NCBI GenBank assembly: GCA_025358115.1
Contig: JANYKQ010000078.1
Span: 1 to 64,000 of the forward strand
Length of the DNA stretch: 64,000 bases
Origin: Methanomicrobiales archaeon
GTDB taxonomy: Archaea; Halobacteriota; Methanomicrobia; Methanomicrobiales; Methanospirillaceae
Reading direction: 5' to 3'
In this document: piece after piece, positions 26,246 through 35,468 of the stretch
Position numbering within the stretch: the stretch's first letter is position 1
Layout of the letters: every line of letters starts with the position of its first letter
Position numbers and translations under genes: made by a program
Notes under the pieces: model-generated
Databases searched by the model: none
What the model saw: only the letters and a program-made list of their open reading frames with translations
What the model was told of the DNA's origin: nothing

Positions 26246-26347
26246 ATCCTCCCCCATCCAGCGGTATGAAGGAATGATAAAAACCTTCATCAGGTAAAAA
26301 ACAGCAATCGTGTAATCAGGATAGGATCCAGCAAAGGAGAACCAGTT

Positions 26348-27016
26348 ATGTCTTCACCACTCATCCTTGTCAACCTCAAGACCTACCGGGAGGGAATGGG
26401 CAACCGTGCCCACATGATCGCACAGGCAGCAGAACTCGTGGCCCGCGAGAGCGGGGTTGTGATTGGGATAGCACCGTCCTATATTGATCTCCACCCGATC
26501 AGCCGCCACTTTGACATCCCGGTCTATGCCCAGCACGTGGACGGGTGCGAACCCGGGGCAAATACCGGGCATATCACGGTCGATGCACTCAAAGTCGCGG
26601 GTGCAGCAGGATCCCTGGTGAATCACTCGGAACGGCGCCTTACCCTTGCCGATATCGAAGCAGCGGTCCGGGGTCTTGCAGCGCAGAACCTCATCTCGGT
26701 GGTCTGCACCAACAATGAGCAGGCCAGTGCCGCAGCAGCAGCCCTGGGTCCGGCCTATGTGGCCATCGAGCCTCCGGAACTGATCGGCAGCGGAGTCTCG
26801 GTCTCCAAGGCAAACCCGGATATTATCAAACGGTCCGTTGCCGCGGTGCATGCGGTAAATCCCAAGGTAAAAGTCCTGACCGGCGCCGGTATCCAGTCCG
26901 GGGAATGCGTGAAGATTGCCGTTGATCTCGGAACCGACGGCGTGCTCCTCGCTTCAAGCGTGGTAAAAGCCAAGGACCCGGGTGCGGTTCTCCGGGATCT
27001 GGTATCAAAACTCTAA
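26348..27016 (+). CDS. tpiA: triosephosphate isomerase (archaeal type)
   Basis: [36 protein letters not shown]. Confidence 0.94.
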
Positions 27017-27046
27017 AAAATCAGTTTGTATTTTTTTTAAGGGGTA

Positions 27047-27148
27047 TCATCTGAGAAACAGGTACCAGGCTCCCACAATCACCACAAAGATCACAACACC
27101 GATTCCGATTACCGTCATACTGCTGATCTCATTTGACTCTTCTGCCAT
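27047..27148 (-). CDS. predicted 33-aa single-pass membrane microprotein
   Basis: reverse strand reads MAEESNEISSMTVIGIGVVIFVVIVGAWYLFLR*; acidic N-terminus, one TM helix, basic end. Confidence 0.5.
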   Translation of the reverse strand: MAEESNEISSMTVIGIGVVIFVVIVGAWYLFLR

Positions 27149-27296
27149 GAAAAACACATCCGTTTGTGGATTATACCACGATATGTTAAGGTTTAAGTAT
27201 TAGTTTAAATAGTTTCTCCGTTTTTTCGCCCTTATTCTGACGATAGTAAAAAAATTCTGCGAAAAACCACCAACCATATAATAAAAAGAGAGTCAA

Positions 27297-27851
27297 TCAG
27301 ACGATGAGCGAGATCAGGTCATGTTTGGTGATAACCCCACGGACAAGCCGGCCTTCCACTACCAGCACTGCATGATTCTGCTGGAGAATATTGATCACGG
27401 TCTCCACATCCATATCCGGAGGAACGGTCGGAAAACCCGGCTCCATGAAATCGCGGACAACAAACAGGTGGGTCTTATGCAGGCGTTGCTGTTCAATGGC
27501 TTTTACAATAACTGTTTCAGAGATACAGCCGACCGGTACTCCCCGTTCAATAACCGGCAACTGGGAGATGTTATTCTTCTCAAAGATCTCAACGGCACGG
27601 GTGATGGCGTCCTGGGGCTGGACAGAGAGCACAGGTATATGCATGATCTGCGCTGCCTTGATCTTCTTGGGCTCTGCACTGTTAAGCACAACAATAATCT
27701 TGTTGAGCGTACTGATGCGGGGGTCCACATTTCCTGCTTCGATTCTCGCAACCATTGACTGGCTGATACCGGCCCGCCGGGCCAGTTCAGTCTGTTTCAA
27801 ACCCAGGGATTCGCGGCGTGAACGAATTTCTTCAGGAGTGGGAATATGCAT
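27297..27851 (-). CDS. XRE-type HTH + CBS-pair transcriptional regulator
   Basis: IRSRRESLGLKQTELARRAGISQSMVARIEAGNVDPRISTLNKI plus two CBS motifs. Confidence 0.92.
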   Translation of the reverse strand: MHIPTPEEIRSRRESLGLKQTELARRAGISQSMVARIEAGNVDPRISTLNKIIVVLNSAEPKKIKAAQIMHIPVLSVQPQDAITRAVEIFEKNNISQLPVIERGVPVGCISETVIVKAIEQQRLHKTHLFVVRDFMEPGFPTVPPDMDVETVINILQQNHAVLVVEGRLVRGVITKHDLISLIV

Positions 27852-28071
27852 TCTGATTACTGATGGTTATAGAATGTTATCAATCTTATGTTCGTTTCCG
27901 TATACACCAGATAAACAGATACACTTCGCGCGCTGTTTTAAAGGGCAACAGGAAATTCTCCGTTGAAGCATGGGAAACGCTGGTATGAATCGGAGTTATT
28001 TTCTTAACCGGATGTGCAAAATACTTTAAAGATGCCTTTCGTATAGCTATCAACGATAGTCCACTATTCAG

Positions 28072-28338
28072 ATGGCTGGATTAGTGTTCAACATGACCGA
28101 TTGTCCCTCTGAAGATGACGATGAAGAGCATCATCCGGTGTATCTTCCCGAAGGTATTGTCGAAGTTATTGTACTTTCCTGCACACACGGTGCAGAGGAC
28201 ATGATCCCTGGATTCACCCGGGGAGATTGGCATTTCTCAACCGCCAGCAATAAAGTGCCCCGGCAGTGTACCGGCGACATAAAAAAGATGAGCCCGGTTT
28301 TTCAGAATCCCTGTGATTACGGGTTGATTGGATTATGA
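28072..28338 (+). CDS. hypothetical small acidic protein
   Basis: 88-aa ORF (MTDCPSEDDDEEHHPVYLPEGIVEVIVLSC); ATGA overlap with next ORF as annotated by longest start. Confidence 0.35.
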   Translation: MAGLVFNMTDCPSEDDDEEHHPVYLPEGIVEVIVLSCTHGAEDMIPGFTRGDWHFSTASNKVPRQCTGDIKKMSPVFQNPCDYGLIGL

Positions 28339-29141
28339 ACGATAGATGGGGTAAAACCCCACACCCGGAAAAAGTACCCGTCTGCCAGGTAAAACAATCA
28401 GCTCTTGTCACAACTGCCCACTCAGCACAATCTGAAACAATACATCCAAAATTCCTTTTGCCAGTCACGGCACCAGTAAAAATACCTGCAAAAACAATGG
28501 GCAGAAAAAATCATATCCTGCACAAAGATTCTCTTTTTATCCTCAAACGCGGGGAGATTTCCCATGTCATAAGCGAGGACTATTCCTACAAGACCGATGC
28601 TTATTACACGATCCTGAAGATGGAGATGGAGGGAAAAAAGATACAGCCTGCCACGGGTGCGCTGATCGACGCTTTTGTAGTACCGATCTGCCTTGAACAG
28701 GTGAAACTGGCCGGCATCCCTGCCTGTGACTGGGAGATATCGCAGGGGTATGTTCCACTCCCTGCCATTATCTATGGAATAAATTACTTTGCAACCAGCT
28801 CTGATTATTTTACCGTTTACGACATTGAGGCGGCAAAAGAAGCAGTGAAGCATATCTCCAACAAGGGGAAATACCCGTTCTGCTACCAGAAACTGGGTGA
28901 AGGAGCAGAGATCTGCCGGTCTGTGGTAATATTCGGAAAAACGACCAGCCGCTCTGATGCAGCAGCACGGATGGCAGAACAGCTGTATGCACTCTTCTCC
29001 ATTCCCCTCATGCAGATGGTACTTGTACGAACCGGGGGAACCTGTGCCCTTTCATCGCTCGCTCCGGTCCGTTATTCCCAGTTGCAGGACGATGAACGAA
29101 CACTTCTTGAAGCATACATTTCCCACCAGGAGTTCTTATGA
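28335..29141 (+). CDS. RLAN-like (RimK-ligase-associated N-terminal) domain protein; true start may be 28497
   Basis: VISEDYSYKTDAYYTILKMEMEGKKIQP and VVIFGKTTSRSDAAARMAEQLYALFSIPLMQM resemble RLAN-domain pattern; immediately precedes RimK-like gene (ATGA overlap). Confidence 0.65.
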   Translation: MNDRWGKTPHPEKVPVCQVKQSALVTTAHSAQSETIHPKFLLPVTAPVKIPAKTMGRKNHILHKDSLFILKRGEISHVISEDYSYKTDAYYTILKMEMEGKKIQPATGALIDAFVVPICLEQVKLAGIPACDWEISQGYVPLPAIIYGINYFATSSDYFTVYDIEAAKEAVKHISNKGKYPFCYQKLGEGAEICRSVVIFGKTTSRSDAAARMAEQLYALFSIPLMQMVLVRTGGTCALSSLAPVRYSQLQDDERTLLEAYISHQEFL

Positions 29142-30010
29142 GCAGGCTCGGGATATTTGTTGACCGGAAAACCCTTTCGAATTCCGAACAACTCAATGCC
29201 CTGATCCGGTGCCGGGATGTTGCCGAGACGCTGGGACATACGGCGAATTTTATCTTTCCGGTAGATATCCACAAGATCAAAAAGATGGATGCAATATTTA
29301 TCCGGGCCCGGACAGACCCGATGAATATTACGTATGTAGCCGCACAGATGGCCCGGTTTCATCGGATACCGGTTCTTGACGACCCGGAATCAATCCGGTG
29401 TTGTTCGGATAAGATCCACATGTATTCCCGGTTGATCCGGGAGAATATTTCACTGCCGAAAACAGTCTTTTTATCCAGGCATGACTTAAACGTCGAACGC
29501 GTGACCCGGCTGTTTGATGAACTCGGCACACCGCTCATTGTAAAAGAACCCTCAACGTCATTCTCGCTCCGGGTCGAGAAAGTGAGTGATATTGCAGATT
29601 TCTTCAAAGTTGCCCAACGGTTCATCAAGCTTTCGGACTGGATTGTTGTCCAGCAATATATCGAGAGCAAATATGACTGGAGAATTGGAGTGCTTGACGG
29701 TAAACTGCTCTATGCCTGCAAATATACGATTCCTTCGGTCACCTTCAAGATACAGGCCTCGGTCAACGGCCATATTGTCTATTGCGGGGTCGAGAGCGTT
29801 CCACCCGAAAAAGTGCCACTCCACGTTATTCAGCTGGGGATCGATGCAGCCAATGCGATCGGCAGGGGTCTCTATGGAGTGGATATCAAAAATAATAACG
29901 GGGATGCATGCGTGATTGAAGTAAACGACAACCCCTCTATTGAGAGCGGCGAGGATGACTGTTATCCCCGGGTCTTTGAAACGATCATATCCCATCTTTT
30001 TGCAGAGTGA
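29138..30010 (+). CDS. RimK-like ATP-grasp ligase
   Basis: DDPESIRCCSDKIHMYSRL, TPLIVKEPSTSFSLRVEKVSD, GLYGVDIKNNNGDACVIEVNDNPSIESGEDD. Confidence 0.88.
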   Translation: MSRLGIFVDRKTLSNSEQLNALIRCRDVAETLGHTANFIFPVDIHKIKKMDAIFIRARTDPMNITYVAAQMARFHRIPVLDDPESIRCCSDKIHMYSRLIRENISLPKTVFLSRHDLNVERVTRLFDELGTPLIVKEPSTSFSLRVEKVSDIADFFKVAQRFIKLSDWIVVQQYIESKYDWRIGVLDGKLLYACKYTIPSVTFKIQASVNGHIVYCGVESVPPEKVPLHVIQLGIDAANAIGRGLYGVDIKNNNGDACVIEVNDNPSIESGEDDCYPRVFETIISHLFAE

Positions 30011-30501
30011 TTTTTTTTATGGAAAACTGGTTATTACGTGCTGAAACGATCTGTATGGAATGCGGCGGTCACTGCTGTGATGAGGCTCATCCCCCGGTCT
30101 CTTCAGTCTGCTTTGCTCGGCTCACACAGTCCGGCGTCTCTCCGGATCTCTTTGAAACGATCGGTTACCGGCGGCTGAAAACCCGGGATAATGGCAAATG
30201 TGTTCTCATGGAGAATGGCCGATGCCGGATTCATACCTTCAAACCCGAGACCTGCCGCTCCGGCCCATTCACCTTTGACATGAACGGGGACAGGATTGCA
30301 ATTTACCTCAAACATGAGCGGATCTGCCCGGTTGTCGGCCTGCTTAAGGAAGTTCCCGCAGCGTACCGGCAGCAGTATGAACTGGCGGTGCAGAGCATCA
30401 CCTGGCTGGTAAAGAACCTGACTGACGATGAACTTGCTGAGATCTGCCGGATCGATGAACCTGAAACCGATAAAGTGGCAGAAGTACCCCGGTTACGATA
30501 A
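30007..30501 (+). CDS. YkgJ-type cysteine cluster protein (ATG alternative start at 30019)
   Basis: CMECGGHCCDEA...GKCVLMENGRCRIHTFKPETCRSGPF. Confidence 0.85.
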   Translation: MIFFMENWLLRAETICMECGGHCCDEAHPPVSSVCFARLTQSGVSPDLFETIGYRRLKTRDNGKCVLMENGRCRIHTFKPETCRSGPFTFDMNGDRIAIYLKHERICPVVGLLKEVPAAYRQQYELAVQSITWLVKNLTDDELAEICRIDEPETDKVAEVPRLR

Positions 30502-30510
30502 CAGCGCATC

Positions 30511-31623
30511 ATGACCATTGGCACTGAACACGAGTATTCCATCAATGATTATAAGTTCAATCCGCTGCCGGTATCGGACGAGATCATCAGGACGATCTGC
30601 GGCCGGTACGAGAGCGAGATCCTCTTTGGGGAAGTGAAGCTCGGAAAGGAACTCCAGAAGACCGTTCTCGAGATCATTCCCCGTTTGCCTGCCGATGATC
30701 TGTCGGTCCTGGAATCTCACCTTTTCTCCGGGATACAGAGATTTTACCGGATCTTCCCTGACCAGTACCGGCTGCTAGGGCTCGGCATGCACCCGTTACT
30801 CCGGCTGGAACAGACCGCAGTCTGGGATCATGACGAGAGAGAATATTATGAGGTATACGACCGGCTCTTTGACCTGCGACAACACGGCTGGCTGAACATC
30901 CAGGCGCTCCAGGTCAATCTCTCGTACAGGAATAAAAAGGAACTCGTCAGCCAGTATAACCGTATCCGGTCCCTGATACCCTACCTGGTCGCCATTACTG
31001 CATCATCGCCATTTGTGGAGGGAAGGCTGACCGGATCCATGGACAACCGCCTGCTCTGTTACCGCGACAACCAGAAGGAGATACCGCAGATTTGCAACCA
31101 GATCGTACCGGACAGGATCAATTCTGTTGACGATTATGACGCAATGCAGGAAGAGATCTTTTTTAAATTACGCGAGCGTGATGCCGGCATTCTCTGCGAG
31201 GAATGGTTAAATTCCAGCGGAGTTATTGTCAGGTTCTCAAGAAAGTGTCTTGAGATCAAGGCGCTTGACGAACAGGAGTGCATTCATTCGGATATGGCAG
31301 TCTGTGCTTTTATCCGACCCCTCCTCCGGTGCAGATCCTTACCGGTGGAGACAGACCATGCAGCATTGCTGGAACTCACGAATCTGGCAATCCGTGACGG
31401 CACAAGGGGGATGAAACCCGAACTGGAGAAGCTGTATGCTGCTGCGTGGAAGCACGCAACTGAAGATGAACGCCAGTACCTGCCGGTTATAGCGCACCGG
31501 ATAGATCATGGAAGCCTGGCCGAGCTCATGCGGGATCGTTACCATAAAAATCCGTCATTTCTCCCGGTTCTTTCTGATATGGCCGCATCCCTGCAAAAAA
31601 ACCAGTCGTATGGTATCCATTAA
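30511..31623 (+). CDS. GCS2-family carboxylate-amine ligase (glutamate-cysteine ligase-like)
   Basis: GTEHEYSIND N-terminus; GLGMHPLLRLEQ; LIPYLVAITASSPFVEGRLTGSMDNRL. Confidence 0.8.
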   Translation: MTIGTEHEYSINDYKFNPLPVSDEIIRTICGRYESEILFGEVKLGKELQKTVLEIIPRLPADDLSVLESHLFSGIQRFYRIFPDQYRLLGLGMHPLLRLEQTAVWDHDEREYYEVYDRLFDLRQHGWLNIQALQVNLSYRNKKELVSQYNRIRSLIPYLVAITASSPFVEGRLTGSMDNRLLCYRDNQKEIPQICNQIVPDRINSVDDYDAMQEEIFFKLRERDAGILCEEWLNSSGVIVRFSRKCLEIKALDEQECIHSDMAVCAFIRPLLRCRSLPVETDHAALLELTNLAIRDGTRGMKPELEKLYAAAWKHATEDERQYLPVIAHRIDHGSLAELMRDRYHKNPSFLPVLSDMAASLQKNQSYGIH

Positions 31624-31691
31624 AAAAAACGGTCCGGTAACAACAAACCTTATTACTTCTGCAGGTATCCATTGGGTAAGAGTGGGGTCCT

Positions 31692-33770
31692 ATGGTACGT
31701 CAACTGGTTTCTGAAGCGAAAGGATATGAAATTTTACAGAGCATCGGCGTTCCGATTCCCCGGTATGCCTTTGCGACAACCATTACTGAAGCAATTGCTG
31801 CAGCGGACATAACCGGGTTTCCCTTAGTACTCAAAGTTGTTTCTCCGGAGATCGTGCATAAGAGTGATGCCGGAGGGGTTATTACCGGAATCCGCAATAC
31901 CGAAGTACTGCTGGGTGCCTATGACAAGATCCTCAGCAATGTCCGGAGCTATAACCCGTCTGCAACGATCAACGGGATTATGGTCGAGCAGCAGCTTGAA
32001 AAAGGACTCGAGATCATCATTGGCGGGAGGATAGATCCGGCCTTTGGAAAAGTGATCACCATAGGTATGGGTGGGACACTGGTCGAACTGATAAAAGACG
32101 TATCAATACGTATCCTCCCGGTCACGGTTACGGATATCAATGCGATGCTCCACGAGCTGAACGGGTACCGTCTGATCAAGGGGTTCCGCAACGAACCTCC
32201 CCGGGATAAGGAAGCTCTCGTACATATTATCGATATCATTGCCCGTTTTTTCATGGACAGCACTGAAGTAGTTGAATTTGATATCAACCCGGTCTTTCTC
32301 TACGAGAAAGGGATCTGTGCGGTGGATGCACGGTTCTACACGGATGAAACATCCCTTGCGGTAAAACCGGAACCAGTCCGCTCATTATCCAAAGACCTGC
32401 TCCACATCAAATCCATTGCATTGATCGGCGCATCTGCTGAACCGAGCAAGGTAGGTTATGCCGTGCTTCGTAATCTCCTCTCATTTCCGGGAACACTCTA
32501 CCCGGTAAATCCGAAACACCCGGTAATTCTCGGCCGCACTGCCTTCCCTTCGCTTACTTCCATCCCCGGCCCGGTCGATGTCGCTGTCGTGGTTGTCCCT
32601 GCAAGAGCAGTCCCTTCAATTGTGGAAGAAGCCGGAAAGAAAGGGATCCCGCTTGTGGTGATCATCTCTTCAGGATTCCGGGAAACGGGTGCTGCAGGTA
32701 TTGAACTGGAAGACCGTATTACAGCCATTGCAAAACAATACAATATACGCATAATGGGCCCCAACTGCCTGGGGCTCATGTTCCCGCACCAGGGAATCAA
32801 CACCACCTTCGACCCGGTCTCCCCAAAACCCGGAAACCTGGCCTTTTTGTCCCAGAGCGGGGCGATCATCACCACCATGGTGGACTGGAGCCTGCCCGAA
32901 GAGATTGGGTTTTCCGAAGTGGTCAGTGTCGGCAACCAGGCAGACCTCACCTTTGAAGACTACATCCTTTTTGCTGCCGATGATCCTGATACAAAAGCCA
33001 TCATCCTGTACGTGGAGCAGATCCGCAATGGCCGGCGCTTCATGGAGATCGTACGACAGGTAACCCCAAGAATGCCGGTTGTTGTAATAAAAGCCGGTTC
33101 ATCGAAGATCGGCCGGATGACCGCGGCTTCCCATACCGGTTCACTCGCGGGCAGTTATGAAGTATACCAGGCAGCATTCTGGCAATCCGGGGTCATTCCT
33201 GCCAGGTCCATGCGGGAAGCATTCCAGACCGCCGAACTCCTCTCCTCTGAAGGGTATCCCAAAGGTATCCGGGCGATTGTTATCAGCAATGCCGGAGGTT
33301 TTGCGGTCCTGTCATCAGATTATGCCGAGATGATGGGAATTGAGATGGTGGAATTACCCATAACGGTAATAAAAGAACTTGACGCTATCCTGCCCGTTGA
33401 CTGGAACCGGAGAAATCCAATCGACATGGTCGGGGATGCAAGCGCGGACCGGTTTGCGCGGACTTTCGATGTGATGATCCGCAACCAGGAGCTCTGGGAT
33501 ATCGCATTTGTGATCGCGGTGCCATCTGCCATCTCCGATCCTATCCGGGTGGCAAACGAACTGGTCCGGTTTTCAAAGAGCACGCAGAAGATGATTGTCG
33601 GCTGTATGATTGGGGGCGATTCCATGAAAACACCCCTGAGAATATTAAGGGATTCCGGTATCCCCAACTTCCCGGATCTCGAAGATGCATTCAAAGCGGT
33701 AGGAAACATCTGCCGGCATATCTGCTGGGAAGAGTTCCACGGTCGCCGGTGCAGCACTGACGACCGGTAA
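31692..33770 (+). CDS. ADP-forming acyl-CoA (acetate-CoA ligase-like) synthetase, fused beta(ATP-grasp)-alpha(CoA-binding)
   Basis: N-terminal GFPLVLKVVSPEIVHKSDAGGV; downstream IALIGASAEPSKVGYAVLRNLL, MGPNCLGLM, LSQSGAI, AASHTGSLAG. Confidence 0.9.
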   Translation: MVRQLVSEAKGYEILQSIGVPIPRYAFATTITEAIAAADITGFPLVLKVVSPEIVHKSDAGGVITGIRNTEVLLGAYDKILSNVRSYNPSATINGIMVEQQLEKGLEIIIGGRIDPAFGKVITIGMGGTLVELIKDVSIRILPVTVTDINAMLHELNGYRLIKGFRNEPPRDKEALVHIIDIIARFFMDSTEVVEFDINPVFLYEKGICAVDARFYTDETSLAVKPEPVRSLSKDLLHIKSIALIGASAEPSKVGYAVLRNLLSFPGTLYPVNPKHPVILGRTAFPSLTSIPGPVDVAVVVVPARAVPSIVEEAGKKGIPLVVIISSGFRETGAAGIELEDRITAIAKQYNIRIMGPNCLGLMFPHQGINTTFDPVSPKPGNLAFLSQSGAIITTMVDWSLPEEIGFSEVVSVGNQADLTFEDYILFAADDPDTKAIILYVEQIRNGRRFMEIVRQVTPRMPVVVIKAGSSKIGRMTAASHTGSLAGSYEVYQAAFWQSGVIPARSMREAFQTAELLSSEGYPKGIRAIVISNAGGFAVLSSDYAEMMGIEMVELPITVIKELDAILPVDWNRRNPIDMVGDASADRFARTFDVMIRNQELWDIAFVIAVPSAISDPIRVANELVRFSKSTQKMIVGCMIGGDSMKTPLRILRDSGIPNFPDLEDAFKAVGNICRHICWEEFHGRRCSTDDR

Positions 33771-33788
33771 ACAACGGACCCGTACCAA

Positions 33789-35468
33789 TTACAGCGTAAT
33801 CTTCTTGAGGATCTGCCCGTTCCGGAAGATAGTGATCACGCCGCCACTCTGGGATACTACGATACCCACCGTTTTCGTCACCTGGGTTATGGCTGCGACA
33901 GAGTTATGCCGCGTGCCCATCCCCGGGAGGAGTTTGACACTGCTCGTGTCAACAGTAATATAGCGCCCTACCGATTCGACAAATCCATCCCCGGTGATGA
34001 TGAATGCACCGTCAAGCTGGGCCAGGGCCTTGATATTTTCCTTGAGTCCGGGATTCATCACAACGCGGTCTTCAGCTTTGTGCCCTTCGAACGGGTTCAA
34101 GATGATCTGGCGGGATTTTTCCAGCACATTTTTTGTATCGCCAATGAGAAACGTGGTACCGACCGGCTTTCCCTCCCTTCCCTCGATCGAGATCTCCGTG
34201 CAGATATGAAAGACCGCGTCAAAAACTTCTTCTTTTACATCGCTGTCAGAGATTACGAGATCCTTCCAGGTATCCGTACTGATACGCACCACGCCATCCC
34301 GTTTCCGGTCGGTGATGTCGTGACCGATACAGAGTATTTCCACAATGTGTCCCTTCTCATCCCGGATGGCTTTGTTGATCCAGGCAATCCAGACCCGGTC
34401 ACCATTGCGCCGGACATTCTCATTCACGTTGACAGCATATCCTTCGGCATTGAAACCCAGGTCATCTGCCATCATGGAGAGATCATTTCCTGAACGGGTC
34501 TTTGCGGGAACAATCGTGGTATTGACGTTCTTTCCAATCACTTCGTCGCTGGTATAATCAAAGAACGTGAGAGCATAGTGATTGAAGAAGGTGATAATAC
34601 CCTGCATGTCCATCCGGATGATGATACTCTGGGTGTTCTGCACTACTTCCCGGTACTTCGCCTCACTCTCTTTGAGCGCATCGGCAATCTTCTGTCGTTC
34701 TGAAATATCAGTCACGACAAACGTTCCGCCTTTGGAGATGTCGCGGGGATCAAGAGGCAGAACCCGAAGATGACAGGTAACCATTTTGTTATCCCGTTTC
34801 ACAAACTGCCAGCTCGCATGCGATACTCCCAAAACATCGAGTTTGATCTGCAATTCCCGGGAAAGGAGGTCATACTCTTCGGGGGAGGAAATAAAAGTGC
34901 GGAGATCTTTTCCCACAAGCTGCGACTCTTCATAGCCGAGCATGTCCGGAAACTGGTGGTTCACCCACTCGATAATTCCATTGCGGGCCTGGAAGATCCC
35001 CAGCGGGGTTGCTGAGAGGATGGCGGCAAGCTGCTCATTCTGCGCCTTGACCTCACGTTCGGATCGCTTGCGCAGCAGGGTCTGTTTGATCAGGTTGACC
35101 ATCTCAAAGATCTGCGGGCGGATGTCACCGGATTTTGGGAAGGTGATCTCGGTCCCGTGAGCAACTTCCATAACCGAGATCTTTGCCGGACTGCGCCTTC
35201 CCAGCAGGATCACCGGCGTAACATTACCCACGGATTTTAAGTATTTGATGAACTCGATCCCGTTCATGTCCGATACGAACTCAATGCCGTTCACATCGGG
35301 CTGCTGCTCGTAGGCCAGGATCACATCGTAATTGCGTCCTTTGAGTTTCTCGATGGCCTGTTTTATGGAATGGGCATTATCGATCTTAATCTCGCCGGTC
35401 TTTTCCAAAAACGAGCGCACCTGTGCGAAAAGATCCGTACTGTCATCGACAAACAAAACAGATATCAT
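33789..35468 (-). CDS. REC-like - PAS - PAS - diadenylate cyclase (DAC/DisA_N) fusion protein
   Basis: N-terminal VLFVDDSTDLFAQV; two PAS domains; C-terminal ISIEGREGKPVGTTFLIGD...SRQIILNPFEGH...LDGAFIITGDGFVESVGRYI...GMGTRHNSVAAIT. Confidence 0.85.
   Translation of the reverse strand: MISVLFVDDSTDLFAQVRSFLEKTGEIKIDNAHSIKQAIEKLKGRNYDVILAYEQQPDVNGIEFVSDMNGIEFIKYLKSVGNVTPVILLGRRSPAKISVMEVAHGTEITFPKSGDIRPQIFEMVNLIKQTLLRKRSEREVKAQNEQLAAILSATPLGIFQARNGIIEWVNHQFPDMLGYEESQLVGKDLRTFISSPEEYDLLSRELQIKLDVLGVSHASWQFVKRDNKMVTCHLRVLPLDPRDISKGGTFVVTDISERQKIADALKESEAKYREVVQNTQSIIIRMDMQGIITFFNHYALTFFDYTSDEVIGKNVNTTIVPAKTRSGNDLSMMADDLGFNAEGYAVNVNENVRRNGDRVWIAWINKAIRDEKGHIVEILCIGHDITDRKRDGVVRISTDTWKDLVISDSDVKEEVFDAVFHICTEISIEGREGKPVGTTFLIGDTKNVLEKSRQIILNPFEGHKAEDRVVMNPGLKENIKALAQLDGAFIITGDGFVESVGRYITVDTSSVKLLPGMGTRHNSVAAITQVTKTVGIVVSQSGGVITIFRNGQILKKITL

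Follow-up and report, generated by a model that had tools for sequence, protein, structure and literature searches.

The 64,000-nucleotide stretch of DNA analyzed here (hereafter, the window; positions 1 to 64,000 of contig JANYKQ010000078.1, assembly GCA_025358115.1) comes from an archaeon of the order Methanomicrobiales, in a genus that matches records named Methanoregula. On its plus strand, genes for an RLAN protein, a RimK-like ATP-grasp ligase, a CxxCxxCC (YkgJ-type) protein and a GCS2-family carboxylate-amine ligase follow each other closely and are succeeded by an acyl-CoA synthetase gene. A comparative-genomic analysis published by Iyer et al. in 2009 reportedly named these amidoligase families. 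An original prediction, made from the letters of the window, had grouped the five genes into one amidoligase biosynthetic cluster; all five open reading frames (ORFs) lie on the plus strand in the order that it gave and belong to the families that it named, and PF14401, PF08443, PF03692 and PF04107 all score above their cut-offs. The unit that is gained and lost as a whole comprises the first four of these genes together with a leader that extends the cluster upstream and contains a hairpin and a short acidic ORF, as follows:

27899–31637, plus strand: whole presence/absence module (leader and four genes), the segment missing at the empty sites of five close relatives
28058–28082, plus strand: inverted repeat or hairpin with an 8-pair covarying stem (arms 28058–28065 and 28075–28082)
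28072–28338, plus strand: candidate leader ORF of 88 aa, with an acidic N-terminus and a variable tail; its stop overlaps the RLAN start
28335–29141, plus strand: RLAN ORF, 268 aa (PF14401, 41.6 bits; cut-off 25)
29138–30010, plus strand: RimK-like ATP-grasp ligase, 290 aa (PF08443, 37.8 bits; cut-off 21)
30007–30501, plus strand: CxxCxxCC (YkgJ-type) protein, probable start ATG 30019 (PF03692, 40.5 bits; cut-off 23)
30511–31623, plus strand: GCS2-family carboxylate-amine ligase, 370 aa (PF04107, 129.6 bits; cut-off 21)
31692–33770, plus strand: ADP-forming acyl-CoA synthetase (beta-alpha; ATP-grasp_5, CoA_binding_2 and Succ_CoA_lig), outside the module

The borders of the module are set by five close relatives (L169–L173) that carry a clean empty site. 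In blastn comparisons with positions 26301–34000 of the window, their matches end at 27,898–27,904 and restart at 31,638–31,659, with about 70 bases between the flanks in the two clearest cases (L170 and L171). The empty sites cut around the leader and the four genes. The acyl-CoA synthetase stays behind and stands alone at all five empty sites, 88–90% identical to the copy in the window. Of 39 genomes of the genus, 38 encode the enzyme, including seven where RLAN was not found, and in several genomes it sits apart from the ligases or the ligases are lacking. Because it is retained so widely and at clean empty sites, the synthetase is an unrelated, independent neighbor; we reject it as a member of the pathway, and with it the proposal that it activates a carboxylate or makes ATP for the cluster.

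Within the module, the RLAN and RimK ORFs share a 4-nucleotide overlap (ATGA), as had been proposed. A second such overlap, claimed between RimK and the CxxCxxCC gene, requires a GTG start at 30007; since a start codon is missing from this position in the two nearest relatives and the homologs start at the position equivalent to ATG 30019, an 8-nucleotide gap is more likely at this junction.

The four genes are inherited together. RLAN is carried by 28 of 36 genomes of the genus, mostly with RimK and GCS2 and usually with the CxxCxxCC gene, in the same order, so that the conserved synteny expected for five families is found for four of them and breaks down at the synthetase. Across 199 genomes of the class, RimK occurs in 58 and GCS2 in 57, with both in 56, leaving three exceptions (Fisher p ~6e-46, a value that, like our other co-occurrence p-values, ignores phylogeny); in one genome with RimK but no GCS2 (G028), the contig ends inside the cluster. 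The CxxCxxCC gene was detected in 45 of the 199 genomes, always with both ligases. About a dozen carriers (roughly a fifth) keep both ligases and lack this gene, which marks it as accessory. One further locus, in the single-contig genome G015 (L056, 9196–12237), has interrupted RLAN and RimK genes and a GCS2 gene without a segment, and is apparently a decaying copy of the module.

Beyond the genus, separate RLAN and RimK genes form a clade with members in Methanoregula-like archaea, Methanolinea, Methanothrix, another family of the order and a family of the phylum that is more distant; in the last of these, a transporter-GCS2-CxxCxxCC set is mostly divergent to RLAN-RimK. On the opposite side of the branch (Shimodaira-Hasegawa-like approximate likelihood ratio test, SH-aLRT, 100) lie the fused RLAN-RimK proteins of many bacterial phyla, which divide into GCS2-linked and GNAT/C39-linked sets. 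Several bacteria have the gene order C39-like peptidase, RLAN-RimK, GCS2, N-formylglutamate amidohydrolase, in which the peptidase and the amidohydrolase are frequent partners and not universal ones. Methanomassiliicoccales, Methanofastidiosum, Thermoplasmata and some bacteria, including Calditrichaeota, also have split RLAN and RimK genes without GCS2; a GNAT or GNAT-DUF3335 gene often accompanies them. In two archaeal families, PF03600 transporters (ArsB-like, DASS-like or unassigned) are in an operon-like position with the ligases (L152, L153, L155, L168, L050 and L053), and an amino-acid permease adjoins the operon in several genera. Methanothrix and its relatives (L068, 4831–6978; L069, L070, L074, L075 and L157–L160) encode a DUF255 thioredoxin-like protein of ~700 aa in a gene that closely precedes RLAN and shares its direction.

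The expected catalytic residues of both ligases are generally conserved, in agreement with the assignment of these enzymes as amidoligases. In the RimK protein, whose solved relatives include RimK and ArgX, the expected ATP-grasp catalytic residues K92, K136, Q172, R182, D249, E261 and N263 are invariant in 25 sequences. For GCS2, the nearest solved structures are plant glutamate-cysteine ligases and YbdK, and 22 of 24 sequences have a complete set of the expected catalytic residues: R180 and R241 never vary, and E6, E8 and E54, at the acidic metal-binding positions, are retained except in two degenerate copies (L053 and L055). R180 aligns with an arginine of plant glutamate-cysteine ligase, which we take to bind glutamate. 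From the class membership of the enzyme and the two invariant arginines, we infer that glutamate is the GCS2 substrate.

The statement that no known pathway matches this gene set is borne out by curated models. No NCBIfam model reaches its cut-off for the RLAN, RimK, CxxCxxCC or GCS2 gene, and the models of the characterized pathways that were matched (glutathione, LysX, MptN, CofF and YbdK) all remain below theirs. The best glutamate--cysteine ligase models give ~14–29 bits against cut-offs of ~250–460, YbdK (TIGR02050) 34.6 against 176.4, and the LysX/ArgX equivalog 45.3 against 275.6. The pairing of GCS2 with an ATP-grasp ligase follows the logic of GshA and GshB, and ArsB-like transporters are operonic in some relatives, so that the product might be a low-molecular-weight thiol similar to gamma-glutamylcysteine or glutathione, and the CxxCxxCC protein might serve as a redox or metal partner. 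This special case of a small glutamyl product seems unlikely, given that the GshA, EgtA and GshB models score far under their cut-offs and that the transporters are of mixed subfamilies. Alternatively, the cluster could tailor a cofactor of methanogens, such as tetrahydromethanopterin or the F420 tail, to which it would add glutamate. Among curated models for the RimK gene, MptN ranks second to the general RimK family, with 58 bits against a cut-off of 350 (CofF: 28.6 against 300). In the sampled Methanoregula-like genomes, where a cofactor role may still apply, no MptN match scores better, no other MptN-like gene is present, and CofF has no match at E 1e-10. All seven genomes of the Methanothrix family that were tested, however, encode a separate strong MptN (313–360 bits) besides the cluster, which weakens the case for RimK as a replacement for MptN or CofF. 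Most methanogens of the class, and near relatives, lack the module, the same ligase pair is present in bacteria, and GCS2 has no known role in cofactor tailoring; we therefore regard a cofactor role as improbable.

The RLAN protein is homologous to bacterial RLAN (hhalign, 98.8%, E 9e-17) and carries an extra segment of ~55 residues relative to it. In its AlphaFold model, residues 1–66 are predicted to be disordered and most of the C-terminal core has a predicted local distance difference test (pLDDT) value above 85. Compared with solved structures in the PDB, the model matches the ATP-grasp ligases PsnB, ArgX, Ddl and RimK with a Foldseek probability of 1.00 and E ~1e-7, at whole-chain TM-scores of only ~0.4. 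Profile comparison by hhalign gave no support for RLAN as a sequence relative of RimK; a relation of the two is favored by the fold comparison alone. In an alignment by eye, the ATP-grasp catalytic lysine and Mg ligands have no conserved counterparts in RLAN. If the fold match is correct, RLAN would be a non-catalytic ATP-grasp partner, a lead at the level of the predicted fold.

In the CxxCxxCC protein, eight cysteines are conserved (C16, C19, C23, C24, C65, C73, C83 and C107), forming a CxxCxxxCC motif and four further positions. Its model (pLDDT 85) has no match among solved PDB structures. In FliB, a motif like CxxCxxCC holds a [4Fe-4S] cluster (PMC8598068), and by analogy the archaeal protein is probably an accessory metal or [4Fe-4S] protein.

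Upstream of RLAN, the stem of the hairpin is paired in 95.5% of the cells of an alignment of 25 sequences, and five of its eight pairs have changed on both sides. Two-sided changes occupy 21 cells against 6.3 in shuffled alignments, and none of 500 shuffles reaches the observed covariation score. The inverted repeat may act either as an RNA hairpin or as a DNA operator. A pattern search of 30 genomes found it mostly once per genome, usually at the module locus, with some extra matches, and no Rfam family matched; neither a genome-wide regulon element nor a known riboswitch fits this result.

Next comes the leader ORF: the hairpin and a following A-GTGTT, of which GTGTT is conserved, immediately precede the conserved segment of this ORF, which runs from ATG 28093 (MTDCPSEDDDEEHH...) and contains an acidic block of roughly MTECLNxDDDDEExHR. 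More than 30 loci, from several genera, have a similar block ahead of RLAN, and of 23 loci inspected, 18 show the exact 4-nucleotide ATGA overlap of leader stop and RLAN start. A coding signal is clear in one other genus only (6 synonymous against 2 non-synonymous codons in the best pair) and weak within the genus of the window, where there is no synonymous excess. From these sequence features, the leader ORF is likely translated. We found it solely in the taxonomic family of the window; the acidic-run pattern search missed it in Methanothrix and family f3, which have the same ligases. To our knowledge, no acidic, ribosome-affecting leader peptide of such a kind has been described in archaea. 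In Salmonella, acidic codons in the small upstream ORF mgtQ regulate the next gene, an effect attributed to ribosome destabilization (PMC8092293); the likeness is an analogy only.

The conservation of a small acidic ORF overlapping RLAN in so many loci also raises the possibility that a protein or ribosomal peptide is the target of the ligases, in a peptide-tag system or in the manner of ribosomally synthesized and post-translationally modified peptides, perhaps with the leader product as the substrate. RLAN finds its top fold match in the graspetide ligase PsnB bound to its precursor peptide, the addition of glutamate to a protein is the reaction of RimK itself, and a papain-like peptidase accompanies the ligases in bacterial relatives. 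No graspetide core motif was recognized in the small acidic ORF. Against a peptide or protein target stand the restriction of the leader to one family in the acidic-run pattern search, its variable tail, its weak coding signal in the genus of the window, and the lack of a peptidase in the archaeal module. We consider a peptide or protein substrate unlikely.

Rather, the module makes, with a probability that we put at about 55%, a small glutamate-containing peptide or amide by two ATP-dependent ligations. In the scheme that we infer for the order of steps, the roles of RLAN and of a metal, and the regulation, GCS2 would activate the gamma-carboxyl of glutamate and join it to an amine, and the RimK-type ATP-grasp enzyme, complexed with RLAN, would form the second amide bond. 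RLAN, as a non-catalytic, degenerate ATP-grasp-like partner, would position or recognize the substrate; the CxxCxxCC protein, a candidate metal or [4Fe-4S] protein that can be lost, might modify or sense the product; and the hairpin and the acidic leader ORF, translationally coupled to RLAN, would set expression. The recurrence of the ligase pair in unrelated gene contexts in archaea and bacteria speaks for a two-ligase pathway. The bacterial N-formylglutamate amidohydrolase and C39-like peptidase neighbors suggest that the product is a glutamyl compound subject to breakdown as well as synthesis, and the operonic PF03600 transporter and adjoining permease are more in keeping with a small molecule than with a protein tag; together, these bacterial and archaeal partners favor a small molecule.

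Several observations weigh against such a glutamyl product. Genome G037 lacks GCS2 and has a PF03600 transporter gene after RimK instead, and the GCS2 copies of one genus of another family (L053, 5639–6631; L055, 3304–4275) have lost the GTEHE glutamate (E6) and a central segment at loci where RLAN and RimK are intact and the CxxCxxCC gene is lacking. Because RLAN-RimK persists without GCS2 in the former and beside a degenerate GCS2 in the latter, it may have a function of its own. Of the two conserved GCS2 arginines, one was placed by a weak alignment and the other by motif only, and the transporters found close to the cluster are not of one subfamily. The openly searchable literature yielded no characterized RLAN or operon of this type and no biochemistry for the subfamily. 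A bolder version of the scheme, in which the module is a distinct amidoligase machine that combines a dead ATP-grasp-fold RLAN with an active partner, produces a glutamyl metabolite not yet described and is under the control of the hairpin and an acidic, ribosome-affecting leader, is a tentative proposal that we hold to be doubtful.

Two neighbors flank the module in the genus. A regulator with a helix-turn-helix and two CBS domains (27297–27851, minus strand) is divergent to it, is 85–98% identical across the genus and is kept at the empty sites. On the other side, a protein encoded at 33789–35468 (minus strand), conserved beside the module in the genus, combines a response-regulator receiver, PAS domains and a DisA-type (DAC) domain, and is possibly an unusual sensor tied to a candidate di-adenylate cyclase.

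The RLAN-RimK/GCS2 pair occurs in many bacterial phyla and in several groups of archaea, and no product was found for it in the searchable literature. The archaeal version is small, with four genes and a leader, and is a clean presence/absence unit in close backgrounds, so a comparison of carrier and non-carrier strains could reveal its product. The split RLAN also offers a stand-alone protein for probing this domain as a non-catalytic relative of ATP-grasp enzymes.

Among known systems, glutathione and gamma-glutamylcysteine synthesis likewise employs one GCS-type and one ATP-grasp ligase; the module differs in its extra RLAN protein and in the low scores of the curated models given above. 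RimK, MptN, CofF and LysX/ArgX have the ATP-grasp fold and catalytic residues in common with the module RimK, again with curated models below cut-off, and no LysW-type carrier as used with LysX/ArgX was noticed at the locus, where no family search for LysW was made. The NAGGN (N-acetylglutaminylglutamine amide) osmolyte pathway (asnO and ngg) is an example of a small operon that makes a non-ribosomal glutamine dipeptide (PMC8070244); its enzymes, asparagine synthase-like and GNAT-family, differ from those of the module, and it has no GCS2. Systems that link RLAN-RimK to GNAT and C39-like DUF3335 proteins share RLAN and RimK with the module, also in split form, and have a GNAT or GNAT-peptidase protein in place of GCS2 and the CxxCxxCC protein.

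The closest likeness is to bacterial operons in which homologous RLAN, RimK-type ATP-grasp and GCS2 components are adjacent, as in the archaeal module. This pair was predicted by comparative genomics (Iyer et al. 2009, as cited in PMC10318531), so the cluster is uncharacterized, as had been claimed, with regard to its product, whereas its gene pair is of a recurrent bacterial type. Judged by its gene content, the module is an archaeal variant of this predicted, uncharacterized amidoligase pair. In the bacterial operons, RLAN-RimK is one fused chain, whereas the archaeal proteins are encoded by separate, overlapping genes and form their own clade; the archaeal module adds the CxxCxxCC gene, and it lacks the C39-like peptidase and N-formylglutamate amidohydrolase. 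Within the genus, DUF3335 exceeds its cut-off in a single genome of the 16 examined, which lacks the cluster, and the amidohydrolase is patchy and was not found in genome G000. Relative to the predicted pair, the features that appear to be new are the split RLAN and RimK, the CxxCxxCC partner and the leader, together with the ATP-grasp-like RLAN model and the covarying hairpin.

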